From Solobacterium sp. (lineage in GTDB: Bacteria; Bacillota_I; Bacilli_A; Erysipelotrichales; Erysipelotrichaceae): a stretch of DNA of 34,916 nt. Below the pieces are notes generated by a model. That model was given only the letters and a program-made list of their open reading frames with translations, was not told where the DNA came from and searched no databases. Of the stretch, positions 5,437 through 9,587 are shown piece after piece. The position numbers were made by a program, and so were the translations under genes. The stretch is taken from contig JAILGV010000071.1 of assembly GCA_024696355.1 (NCBI GenBank), positions 1 to 34,916 of the forward strand, read 5' to 3'. Every line of letters begins with the position of its first letter. Position 1 is the stretch's first letter.

Positions 5437-5469
5437 ATAAGAAAAGATCCGGAAGGATCTTTTTCTTAT
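5437..5469 (-). terminator. Intrinsic terminator downstream of the AAA ATPase gene
   Basis: GATCC/GGATC core stem with a 4-nt loop, extended by A-rich and T-rich arms (5437-5450 pairing with 5455-5469, one mismatch or bulge). On the minus strand the stem is followed by TTTTCTTAT. The A/T symmetry would let it work in both directions, but only minus-strand genes flank it. Confidence 0.75.
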
Positions 5470-5513: not shown

Positions 5514-7631
5514 TTAAAACATATCGTCATCTTCGGGAGGCTGTACCTTGACCGTCAGATCGAAGTCATCCAGTCTCAGCTCATCCAGTTTGCCGCCGGG
5601 ATTCTTCACCAGTCTCTGCGACTGTCTCAGAATTGCATCTTCGACTACATTTCTGGCAAGACGGCCGTTGCCGGCTTCCGCCGCATTGATGGACTGTACA
5701 TCTTCGAAGTATGCCTCCAGTTCCCTGATGGCTCCCTCGTCAATGTAGTAGCCCTTTGACTTCGCCTGGATCTCGGCGATTTTGCGCAGTTCCTCTCCGG
5801 TATAGTCCGGGAAATGAATCAGATTCGGGAAACGGGACTTCAGACCGGAATTGGATTCCAGGAAGCCCTTCATTTCCTTTTCATAGCCGGCAAGAATAAC
5901 AATCAGTGAATCTCTGTTGTCTTCCATTGCCTTGACAATCGTGTCAATGCACTCCAGACCGAAGGAATCGTCTTTTCCCCTGTAAAGGGAATATGCTTCG
6001 TCAATGAACAGCACGCCGCCGATTGCACTCTTGATTACCGACATGGTCAGCGGAGCTGTCTGACCGACATACTGGGCAACCAGATCTGCTCTTGTCACTT
6101 CCACAAGCTGACCCTGTGAAAGAGCACCGATTGCCTTCATATATCTGGAAATCAGACGGGCAATCGTTGTCTTTCCGGTACCGGGATTTCCGGTGAAGAT
6201 CATATGCTTTGAAATCTCGCTGGTCTTCATGCCCTGCTGCTTGCGGATCTCCTGCATCTGAATATGTGACTGCAGGGAACGGATATAATCCTTGACCATG
6301 TCCAGACCGACAATTGCATCAAGATCTCTGTTGACCGCCTCTATTTCATCACTGCTGGTCTTCGAACGGGAAAGCTTCACGGAACGGTCCATATATACCG
6401 CTACAGGTTCATCGTCCCTTACGGTAAATTCAACTTCGGTGTTCTCCGGAATCATTTCCGTCAGAGCTTCCTGGCTCAGGGAAATATAGAAATCGTTATA
6501 CAGCTGGGTAAGAGAATCGGAGCCGTTTGTCTTGTCATAATGTGTCTTGACCCAGTCTTTCACATCACTGTCGACAGTGACATCAAGCTTCAGGTTCTTC
6601 TTTGCTTTTTCAATCAGGGCTGCAGATTTAATTTCGTTGTATTCATCCGCATCACGTTCCGTCATTCTCTTCAGCGTAACGGTATCAAGCACATGGTACA
6701 GGAAATCCGCACCGAAGGCATCCTGTACTGCGGAAGTTCCCTTCGTTGTGATAAAGACAAGATACTTTCCTTCTGCGTCCAGGGAATCAACGGCATTCTT
6801 TACCAGACCTGTCTGATTTTCCACAAGAACACCCTTGTTCAGTACATAACGCTTGCTTAATGTGACTTTTCCGGTGCAGACAAGGGAATCAAGCATTCTC
6901 AGGAAGGACGGGAAGCCCACTTCAAAATTTTCAAAGCAGATAATCGATCCTTTTCCGGAAAGATCCTTGTAGAGGTCCTGCAGGAAAATCTGTTCCTGTG
7001 CACCGCTCTGGTAAAGACTCATGTCAATCGTATAAACTTCATCACTGGCAATTGCCCTGTGCGCATAAAGGCTGGAAGCCATCTGCGTAATGCAGGCATG
7101 TCTTCCGCTGCCCTTGGGACCCGTGACAATAATCACGTTCTTTGCGCGGCCTTTTTCCTCGCCCATGACATACGGTCTGCGGAAAGCAACGCAGAACTGC
7201 TTCAGTGCTTCCTCCTGCCCTACGATTTTTTCATCAAGTTCCTGCAGTATTTCAGTGAACATTTTGGCACTGTCAATATTTTTGACAGGTGTCTGCACTC
7301 TGGAATCTTCTTCCGTGATGCCGTAGTCTTTCTCAATCTCTTTCTGCATGCGCTCCATATCTTTCTGATTGAAGCCGTTGTCCTTTGACATCTTTTCCAG
7401 ATCTTTCTGCTGCTTTTCAAGAATTTTGCGCAGCTCCGCAAAAGAGTCATTGGCATTTTTGAGAAGACTGCTGGTTGCTTCGGAAATGCTGTTTAAAGCA
7501 GAAGAGCCCGTCGATTCGGTCTTTTTTGCCGGATCGGTTGTCAGCGTAATCTTCTGATCCTGGGATGTACGGTTCTTGCCGTACAGAATTTCGCGCATCA
7601 GCTTTTCTTTTTCTTCATCTTTTCTGCTCAT
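5514..7631 (-). CDS. Two-module AAA ATPase: degenerate Clp-like module plus CbbX/SpoVK-like module
   Basis: A 705-residue cytosolic protein. Residues 1-110 are charged and Ser/Thr-rich with a probable coiled coil at 63-102. A first AAA module follows, introduced by the Clp-like KIVGQEEALKQF (135-146). Its Walker A reads GPKGSGRH (171-178), Lys being replaced by Arg, and the Walker B position reads IICFENFE (230-237), lacking the usual DE; it is probably a structural, inactive module. The second module starts with LDAIVGLDMVKDYI and has a full Walker A GNPGTGKT (481-488, K487), Walker B VLFIDEA (D544, E545), a YVGQTA loop, sensor VILAGYE and SGLKSRFPN arginine finger, as in CbbX/SpoVK AAA proteins. 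It lies 3 nt downstream of an XpaC-like membrane-protein gene, with GGGTGG 8 nt before its ATG, so the two are almost certainly co-translated. Function is unknown; membrane-linked remodelling is an inference from the partner. Confidence 0.85.
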   Translation of the reverse strand: MSRKDEEKEKLMREILYGKNRTSQDQKITLTTDPAKKTESTGSSALNSISEATSSLLKNANDSFAELRKILEKQQKDLEKMSKDNGFNQKDMERMQKEIEKDYGITEEDSRVQTPVKNIDSAKMFTEILQELDEKIVGQEEALKQFCVAFRRPYVMGEEKGRAKNVIIVTGPKGSGRHACITQMASSLYAHRAIASDEVYTIDMSLYQSGAQEQIFLQDLYKDLSGKGSIICFENFEVGFPSFLRMLDSLVCTGKVTLSKRYVLNKGVLVENQTGLVKNAVDSLDAEGKYLVFITTKGTSAVQDAFGADFLYHVLDTVTLKRMTERDADEYNEIKSAALIEKAKKNLKLDVTVDSDVKDWVKTHYDKTNGSDSLTQLYNDFYISLSQEALTEMIPENTEVEFTVRDDEPVAVYMDRSVKLSRSKTSSDEIEAVNRDLDAIVGLDMVKDYIRSLQSHIQMQEIRKQQGMKTSEISKHMIFTGNPGTGKTTIARLISRYMKAIGALSQGQLVEVTRADLVAQYVGQTAPLTMSVIKSAIGGVLFIDEAYSLYRGKDDSFGLECIDTIVKAMEDNRDSLIVILAGYEKEMKGFLESNSGLKSRFPNLIHFPDYTGEELRKIAEIQAKSKGYYIDEGAIRELEAYFEDVQSINAAEAGNGRLARNVVEDAILRQSQRLVKNPGGKLDELRLDDFDLTVKVQPPEDDDMF

Positions 7632-7634
7632 ATG

Positions 7635-8669
7635 CTATTCCACCCTTCCCTGCTTCTTTCTCAGGGATGCCATAATATCACCTTCGTCAGAATATCCGTC
7701 TTTTCTCAGCATGGCGTCCAGTGTAGACATGTCTGCCTGCAGATTGATGGAATCACTTTCCGACATGCTCGGAATGATTCTGTCGCGCATGGCAGAATTA
7801 ATATGACTGATCGTCTTTTTCAGACTTTCAACATTTTCCTGGTAATTTGCGTCCGTCTGTACATTCTGCATCTTGGTATACTGCTTCAGAATTCCGCACA
7901 GATACGGCAGATAATTTCTGTAAAGCTTGGTAAGCTTGCTCTTCTGTGACGGGAAATGCTTTTCCAGATCACCCAGCTGCTTGAGAAGTCCTGTCGTTTC
8001 ATAAAGACCGTTGGAAATCTCTTCATCGGGAATGCCGTCATTCAGACTGTTGATCTGTTCACGGAACCTGTATGCCTCCGGTTCCTGTTCACTTTCTTTC
8101 GCACTGTTTCCCGCAGGCTTCTTCGCTTCTTTCTTTTCCTCGAATTCATCGCCCTTGGCGACATATTCCGCGTCAATAATCGTTCCGGGTTTTACCGCCA
8201 CGTCATTCTGCGCCATTGTCAGCAGGGAATCAAACAGAGAATCATAAATGCCTCCGTACTGATCACGGAAAGACGCCATGGTATTAAAGTAATGTCCGTC
8301 GCAGGTTACCTCCAGAGAATCCAGGCTTGTATATTTTTCTGTTTTCTTGGTCAGTACGATGCTGTGCCCGGCTGCGGTCATGGAGATTGAATTTGCCCCG
8401 CTGCGGAAACGCTTCATCAGATATGTGTTGACTCTCGCCTTCTGATCCGCAGTGTGCTTTGTGTCTGTATATCCCCTGCGCCTGATTGTGGAGCGCCTGC
8501 TGGACGACTGCGCATTTGTATATTGATTTGTTTTGGATGATCCGATTGCCTTGGACATCAGATAACCTACAATGCCGAATATTAAAACCATGGGCAGTAA
8601 AGTTTCTCCAAACCCCAGTACAAAGAACAATAAGAAGAACATCCATAATCCGTTTGGTCTTCGATACAT
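7635..8669 (-). CDS. XpaC-like membrane protein (5-bromo-4-chloroindolyl phosphate hydrolysis family, probable)
   Basis: A 344-residue protein with an N-terminal hydrophobic hairpin at about 9-43 (LWMFFLLFFVLGFGE, then LLPMVLIFGIVGYLM), a Ser/Arg/Thr-rich linker, a middle domain (about 75-190) I do not recognise, a Lys/Glu-rich linker, and a helical C-terminal domain (about 215-335). That last part shows the spacing of XpaC/PF10112 proteins: a conserved KLYRNYLPYL segment, two amphipathic helices, and the ending INLQADMSTLDAMLRKDGYS. In Bacillus, xpaC precedes a telA-like toxic-anion-resistance gene; here the downstream partner is an AAA ATPase. The ATG is preceded by GAGGTGA only 4 nt away, an unusually short spacing. 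A dedicated extended -10 promoter lies just upstream. The XpaC assignment rests on pattern recognition and needs a profile search. Confidence 0.7.
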   Translation of the reverse strand: MYRRPNGLWMFFLLFFVLGFGETLLPMVLIFGIVGYLMSKAIGSSKTNQYTNAQSSSRRSTIRRRGYTDTKHTADQKARVNTYLMKRFRSGANSISMTAAGHSIVLTKKTEKYTSLDSLEVTCDGHYFNTMASFRDQYGGIYDSLFDSLLTMAQNDVAVKPGTIIDAEYVAKGDEFEEKKEAKKPAGNSAKESEQEPEAYRFREQINSLNDGIPDEEISNGLYETTGLLKQLGDLEKHFPSQKSKLTKLYRNYLPYLCGILKQYTKMQNVQTDANYQENVESLKKTISHINSAMRDRIIPSMSESDSINLQADMSTLDAMLRKDGYSDEGDIMASLRKKQGRVE

Positions 8670-8692
8670 GCAATCACCTCGTTATAAATCTG

Positions 8693-8701
8693 ATTATATC
8701 A
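8693..8701 (-). promoter_or_regulatory. Extended -10 promoter of the XpaC-like/AAA operon
   Basis: On the minus strand TGATATAAT combines the TG of an extended -10 with a perfect TATAAT. No good -35 is present at 16-18 nt, as is allowed with an extended -10. Transcription would start about 16 nt before the ATG at 8669. Confidence 0.6.
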
Positions 8702-8731
8702 GAAAACAGTACTTCTGCCTGATTACAACAT

Positions 8732-8758
8732 AAAAAGAATGCCGTCTGTCCGACGGCA
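8732..8758 (-). terminator. Intrinsic terminator of the 273-residue unknown gene
   Basis: A 7-bp stem TGCCGTC/GACGGCA with a 5-nt loop (8740-8758), followed on the minus strand by TTCTTTTTA. It separates the unknown gene from the XpaC-like/AAA operon. Confidence 0.8.
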
Positions 8759-8765
8759 CGTTCAG

Positions 8766-9587
8766 TTATTCCTCTGCGGGTACTCCTGTGGTTCTCCACA
8801 TCTCGCTGTAGCTCATGAATGCTACTTCATCCGCATTCAGCTTTGCCTGATTTCTCTGCTTTTTGATGTTTCCTTCATGCACGCCGTTCAGGATATTCTT
8901 GTTGACCATGTACTGAACATAAAGAACTTTCTTAAGCAGGAACCAGTTGATTACATATCTGACAATATACGGAGCTCTGTCAGCTGCCGCAGGAAGAATC
9001 CGGAGTGCTTCCTCCTTCTGCTCTTCCGCAGCCCTGATTGCAGTGGCTTTCAGTTCGTCGTAGTTTTTGAAATGCTCTCTGTCGATTGATCTCTGCAGAG
9101 CGCCGGCCTTCATTGTGAACAGCTTGTTCCACGCATCCGCAATCTCGTCTGCGCTGTCGGAACTGATGCCGACAATTTCGTTCTTGCAGTCAATGAATCT
9201 GCTGCCGGGTTCAGTCATGCAGTAATAGTAGCCCTTCGCATAAATAAAGCTGCAGCTGCTGTACGGCACAACAAGGAGAGCTCTGTCTCCCGCCTCTTTG
9301 TTTTCATACAGAATATACGGATATTCAAGTGCCCTGCCGGTCAGCTTGAATACATCTTTATATCGGATAATCTGATTGCTGATTGCATCTTTGTTGATTT
9401 CGCTCTTTAAGCATGTGCAGATCTTTACCCCGGAATCACCTTCCACAATTTTTGCAAACGCCTCTCTGAGGACAGGATCAAGATTTTCTTCAAGACTGAG
9501 ATAGTCTTCCAGATAGCCGTTAAATCTGCAGTCTTCTCCGCCGCGGCGGCTGTCGAGTTCCTGATCAAGAATCATACTTATTGCCAT
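8766..9587 (-). CDS. Unknown protein, 273 residues
   Basis: I do not recognise this protein. It has no signal peptide and no clear membrane segment; the most hydrophobic parts (RALLVVPYSSCSFIYAKGYYYC near 103-124, and YIVRYVINWFLL near 207-218) look like buried strands or helices. The C-terminal third is helical with a basic patch (EGNIKKQRNQAKLN). Aromatic residues, especially Tyr, are frequent, and Cys is scattered without a metal motif. The start is well supported: GGAGG 7 nt before the ATG, and a promoter with matching leader upstream. It has its own promoter and terminator, so it is a single-gene unit placed directly upstream of the XpaC-like/AAA pair; any functional link to them is conjecture. 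Confidence 0.75.
   Translation of the reverse strand: MAISMILDQELDSRRGGEDCRFNGYLEDYLSLEENLDPVLREAFAKIVEGDSGVKICTCLKSEINKDAISNQIIRYKDVFKLTGRALEYPYILYENKEAGDRALLVVPYSSCSFIYAKGYYYCMTEPGSRFIDCKNEIVGISSDSADEIADAWNKLFTMKAGALQRSIDREHFKNYDELKATAIRAAEEQKEEALRILPAAADRAPYIVRYVINWFLLKKVLYVQYMVNKNILNGVHEGNIKKQRNQAKLNADEVAFMSYSEMWRTTGVPAEE

Follow-up and report, generated by a model that had tools for sequence, protein, structure and literature searches.

An XpaC-like membrane protein and a double-module AAA protein are encoded side by side in the window (the whole 34,916-nt stretch of Solobacterium sp. DNA analysed here), and on balance we favour, with modest confidence, the reading that this pair supplies the AAA-driven half of an enlarged XpaC–TelA module, in which the AAA protein would act as an ATP-driven remodelling partner at the membrane. 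Of the two AAA modules, the first is an inactivated Hsp100-type domain and the second, judged by its motifs, an intact CbbX-type ATPase, a division that is conserved across 87 relatives, while TelA is present in nearly every genome of the family that has the AAA gene and always lies on the same strand when the two share a contig. The first-pass annotation, which had the AAA protein taking the place of TelA as the partner of XpaC, was half right in its interpretation, as the AAA protein accompanies TelA rather than replacing it.

The two genes are both on the minus strand with a gap of 3 nt between them (Table 1), as originally described, and their transcription from one promoter is plausible. 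An extended −10 box (TGATATAAT) lies ~30 nt upstream of the xpaC-like start codon, −10-like boxes are found at comparable positions upstream of several xpaC-like orthologues, and terminator-like hairpins flank the pair. The single promoter put forward in the first-pass annotation retains this plausibility on the strength of box and hairpins that are matches to a consensus only, and the hairpin upstream of the xpaC-like gene (8739–8759) scores only modestly above shuffle expectation in the consensus scan.

Table 1. Features of the xpaC-like/AAA locus, in window coordinates
Feature	Coordinates	Strand	Description
XpaC-like gene	7635..8669	−	344-aa membrane protein
Double-module AAA gene	5514..7631	−	705 aa
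AAA module 1, residues ~120–415	6387..7274	−	Inactivated Hsp100 NBD2-like domain; profile and structure matches
AAA module 2, residues ~427–698	5538..6353	−	CbbX/SpoVK/EccA-type ATPase, by sequence motifs
Putative promoter region	8684..8705	−	Extended −10 TGATATAAT followed by RBS-like AGGTGAT; read from sequence
Terminator-like hairpin with T tail, between the upstream 273-aa gene and the xpaC-like gene	8739..8759	−	Consensus scan
Terminator-like hairpin 3′ of the AAA gene	5442..5463	−	Consensus scan
Upstream 273-aa gene, no known family	8766..9587	−	Recurrent neighbour

The gene upstream of the pair recurs as a neighbour in several genera: in all 65 xpaC-linked places a gene of this 273-aa type is codirectional with xpaC, and in 58 of them it lies 21–312 nt upstream of the xpaC-like gene. 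Pfam and PDB searches with the 273-aa protein gave no convincing match and did not reveal a function. This gene probably forms a transcript of its own, separate from the pair; the intervening terminator-like hairpin and −10-like box in the window make a single operon with it unlikely, and similar features intervene upstream of some xpaC-like orthologues. Core genes flank the pair, with rapZ, yvcK and whiA on one side and addB and addA on the other. One genus has a PARG-like gene (PF10021; L160, 10106–10939, minus strand) inserted between the 273-aa-type and xpaC-like genes, and the window has an ADP-ribosylglycohydrolase gene (PF03747; 32594–33445, minus strand) far from the pair. Other genera carry a small gene (~150–190 aa, without a Pfam family, e.g. 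L081, 5463–5996, and L104, 5481–5993) between the xpaC-like and AAA genes, which is absent from the window genus.

On sequence grounds, calling the 344-aa protein XpaC-like has good support at the family level. Hydropathy and the AlphaFold2 model agree on two hydrophobic helices at its N-terminus (residues 7–19 and 24–43), and in the model this hairpin is followed by a confidently predicted small α/β domain (residues ~74–158), a disordered linker and a helical domain (residues ~198–323), bearing out the N-terminal membrane hairpin and helical C-terminus reported in the first pass. The XpaC similarity claimed at the same time holds for the orthologues and not for the window protein taken alone: a Pfam search with the latter matched neither PF10112 nor any other family, whereas 34 of 39 diverse orthologues match PF10112 at E < 0.1 (best E 1.2e-10), and several orthologues found outside the window genus score above the Pfam cut-off for this family in the genome searches. 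Furthermore, in G032, which belongs to another family of the same order, AAA, XpaC and TelA are encoded in direct series, and the protein between AAA and TelA is a clear XpaC (2.6e-16, above the Pfam cut-off) with the same plan of membrane hairpin and helical domain. The assignment is based on these orthologue matches and on the position of the G032 protein. A Foldseek search with the helical domain returned nothing at E ≤ 0.001, and a known fold for this domain was discarded, the VIA-align Z-scores of up to 12.5 being at the level expected of generic helical bundles. The AAA-linked proteins are longer than classical XpaC and have the α/β domain in addition, and the two forms coexist in some genomes. 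The window genome also encodes a short XpaC-like protein (165 aa; L032, G000 contig C95) that has no membrane hairpin and is located apart from the pair.

The adjacency of the xpaC-like and AAA genes is recurrent and extends far beyond one genome. In Erysipelotrichaceae the AAA gene is found in 101 of 171 genomes and 20 of 52 genera, and 93 of these 101 genomes, representing 20 genera, have an xpaC-like gene at most 1.2 kb from it; within the window genus the pair is nearly universal. Lactimicrobium massiliense (L082), which can be cultivated, is among the relatives with these genes. Two of the AAA-bearing genomes (G403 and G406) gave no XpaC-like match, and G363 and G438 are among those in which the AAA gene is not near an xpaC-like gene. 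Across a phylum-wide sample of 295 genomes, module 1 was detected in 15, nearly all of them in the window's family.

The presence of TelA closely follows that of the AAA gene. All but two of the 101 AAA-bearing genomes of the family have TelA (the two without it are G022 and G374), compared with 10 of the 70 that lack the AAA gene (Fisher 7e-33, ignoring shared ancestry). Counted per genus, TelA is present in 20/20 AAA-bearing genera versus 5/32 others (4e-10, again ignoring shared ancestry), and the phylum-wide sample, likewise uncorrected for ancestry, has TelA in 15/15 genomes with the AAA gene and 5/280 without it. This is the reverse of the absence of TelA from AAA-bearing genomes that the first-pass annotation had predicted. 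TelA shares a contig with the AAA gene in 48 of the 101 genomes, always on the same strand, and in several genera is located directly 3′ of it (L076/L162, L079/L148, L086/L149, L155 and L159); many of the window-genus genomes have some kilobases between the two. A point against the favoured reading is that TelA lies away from the pair in the window genome and in about half of the genomes. Part of the window genus has a gene for a secreted, membrane-anchored 5′-nucleotidase-like protein between AAA and TelA (L066, 7395–9257, and relatives).

We regard the AAA protein as an addition to XpaC–TelA because relatives such as G385 and G424 have XpaC–TelA without it and because the AAA gene and XpaC–TelA of G384 are at separate places; since some genomes of the order have XpaC–TelA but lack the AAA gene, it is not essential to the XpaC–TelA module. 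These cases, together with AAA genes that are not close to an xpaC-like gene (as in G363 and G438), weigh against the favoured reading. The N-terminal tails of TelA carry an [IV]xLTL-like motif (L001, 1462–2649; L182, 2035–3222), and the AAA N-termini of the window genus have a similar one, which may be a docking motif common to both tails. It was rejected as a marker specific to AAA–TelA pairing, as TelA of AAA-less genomes also has the motif.

The main rival to a shared XpaC–TelA machine, which we consider rather unlikely, is that the AAA protein works as a general remodeller, like CbbX or SpoVK, on a separate cytosolic client, with the XpaC-like protein as a mere membrane tether and the linkage to TelA as a matter of stress co-regulation. 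Such a division of labour would fit the tighter linkage of the AAA gene to xpaC (93/101) than to TelA (48/101 on one contig), and also the greater length and extra α/β domain of the AAA-linked XpaC-like proteins and the existence of genomes with both forms. However, the near-perfect co-occurrence with TelA and the exclusively codirectional linkage argue against it.

The AAA protein itself (AlphaFold2 model, mean pLDDT 79) combines two modules of different origin. Module 1 has both the fold and the sequence profile of an Hsp100 NBD2, with profile matches to ClpB/ClpC/Hsp104 (hmmsearch, best E 4.4e-17) and structure matches to the NBD2 of ClpA, ClpB and ClpC at Z 22–25 (for ClpA, Z 24.9 and rmsd 2.5 over 269 residues). 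In contrast to Hsp100 proteins, the module 1 family is without the catalytic residues and comes without an Hsp100 NBD1 or N-domain, and the segment that bears the GYVG pore loop in ClpB looks different in module 1, where this loop is apparently missing. The motifs of an active ATPase (Walker A GxxGxGK[ST], Walker B DE) are not present; as the first-pass annotation had recognised, the corresponding segments read GPKGSGRH (residues 171–178), with an arginine at the position of the Walker A lysine, and CFENFE (residues 232–237), in which alignment to ClpB puts a glutamate in place of the Walker B aspartate and an asparagine in place of the catalytic glutamate. Among the 87 relatives GxxGxG is largely retained, the Walker A lysine is replaced in 70 and retained in 17, and the Walker B aspartate is a glutamate in 85, while neither the Ser/Thr that follows the lysine position nor the catalytic glutamate (replaced by Asn, His or another residue) occurs in any of them. 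Because it is conserved across these relatives, the division into a dead and a live module characterises the family as a whole and does not stem from a sequencing error or a peculiarity of one genome.

It is conceivable that module 1 still binds nucleotide in a regulatory capacity rather than being a pure scaffold, as the lysine of the 17 relatives and the largely intact GxxGxG would suggest, but we deem this unlikely; the Walker A Ser/Thr and the catalytic glutamate are missing throughout the family, and the window protein has arginine in place of the lysine.

Module 2, in terms of its motifs, is an intact ATPase of the CbbX/SpoVK/EccA type. It has a Walker A (GNPGTGKT), a YVG pore loop, a Walker B (FIDEAY), GLKSRF and a sensor-2 (GNGRLARN), and the Walker A, Walker B, YVG, the arginine of SRF and sensor-2 are retained in essentially all of the 87 relatives. 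Together with the lid this is the full catalytic set of a CbbX-type protein on the corresponding fold (~40% identity to CbbX; structure Z 24.7 over 269 residues), so both the intact second module and the CbbX/SpoVK relationship first noted for the AAA protein are upheld. The assignment is at the superfamily level, as module 2 scores below all three curated equivalog cut-offs (CbbX TIGR02880, 233.5 versus 459 bits; SpoVK TIGR02881, 295 versus 423 bits; EccA TIGR03922, 236.6 versus 467 bits). Module 1 is not part of CbbX, SpoVK or EccA, and the surroundings of the pair showed no Rubisco or ESX context. Examples of AAA proteins in which one ring is inactive are NSF (D2) and Pex1/Pex6 (first rings), which likewise have one degenerate and one active module per chain; unlike in these, the modules of the window protein come from two different AAA families, one Hsp100-type and the other CbbX-type.

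A replacement of TelA by the AAA protein as the partner of XpaC, in an alternative two-protein system, would fit the window, which shows just the pair, and the 53 AAA-bearing genomes (of 101) whose AAA contig has no TelA. This is nevertheless highly improbable, as it is contradicted by both co-occurrence (99/101) and synteny, with TelA immediately adjacent in several genera, and by the window genome itself, which encodes two TelA homologues. One of them follows a two-component system on a different contig, and the second, a shorter paralogue of 314 aa, is on a third contig apart from the pair (L002, G000 contig C13). An anti-phage defence system is just as implausible, as the AAA modules match DolB and IetA only weakly in PADLOC (best E 1.4e-9), which reflects generic AAA similarity, neither the XpaC-like protein nor TelA gave a PADLOC match, leaving no model matched in both components, and the pair has core genes of the chromosome around it (rapZ, yvcK, whiA and addAB) and a near-universal presence in the window genus that is unlike the patchy spread of defence genes.

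Within the favoured reading of the pair as the AAA-driven half of an XpaC–TelA module we tentatively propose a more specific arrangement, in which XpaC–TelA is the client or partner of a dedicated, membrane-tethered AAA machine with two tiers, a pseudo-Hsp100 ring and, fused to it, a CbbX-type motor. The XpaC-like protein would anchor this machine at the inner face of the membrane via its N-terminal hairpin, and its α/β and helical domains would sit in the cytoplasm. The AAA protein would form a ring, as both homologous families suggest, with the inactive module 1 providing a scaffold or docking tier and module 2 binding and hydrolysing ATP and using its YVG pore loop to pull on a protein. As client or partner, the membrane-located XpaC–TelA assembly would be the most likely substrate; the AAA protein might contact it physically in a complex, and may remodel, disassemble or reset it during envelope stress.

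The envelope-stress role assigned here to the AAA pair is carried over from TelA and XpaC homologues in Listeria, Lactococcus and Enterococcus, and by this analogy a membrane-tied remodelling complex with such a role is plausible. The Lactococcus xpaC-telA genes (llmg_1115/1116) are members of the CesSR regulon, and without them growth is partly impaired when membrane proteins are overproduced (PMC3139573). In Listeria, xpaC-telA (lmo1966-1967) is a putative operon (PMC12791056), and that paper, citing Collins 2010, reports a contribution of TelA to resistance against nisin. In an Enterococcus faecium liaR mutant, xpaC rises (PMC10269926). Tolerance of agents that act on the envelope, nisin and lactococcin among them, has been linked to TelA and XpaC. 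Like the operons of Listeria and Lactococcus (PF10112 plus PF05816), in which an XpaC-family membrane protein is coupled to TelA, the window's relatives hold XpaC and TelA in one codirectional cluster. They differ in having a double-module AAA protein between or beside XpaC and TelA and a longer XpaC with an extra α/β domain, and the window genome differs further in encoding TelA elsewhere.

The component families are already known. In the literature searched, which leaves most subscription journals outside, no description was found of an AAA protein together with XpaC–TelA or of a fused dead-Hsp100/live-CbbX architecture, and within that scope both the combination and the architecture are apparently new. 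The tie between the AAA protein, the membrane protein and TelA in these gut bacteria of the Erysipelotrichaceae suggests an undescribed, ATP-powered version of the XpaC–TelA stress module. An inactivated Hsp100 domain conserved in fusion with a CbbX-type motor is an unusual AAA architecture, and a lineage in which TelA and XpaC almost always travel with an AAA motor suggests an assembly that needs active remodelling. For TelA and XpaC, which are widespread and mechanistically obscure, the motor offers a concrete biochemical entry point, and if the two-tier machine is real it would constitute an ATP-driven envelope-stress remodelling system of new composition and give a handle on how TelA and XpaC act.
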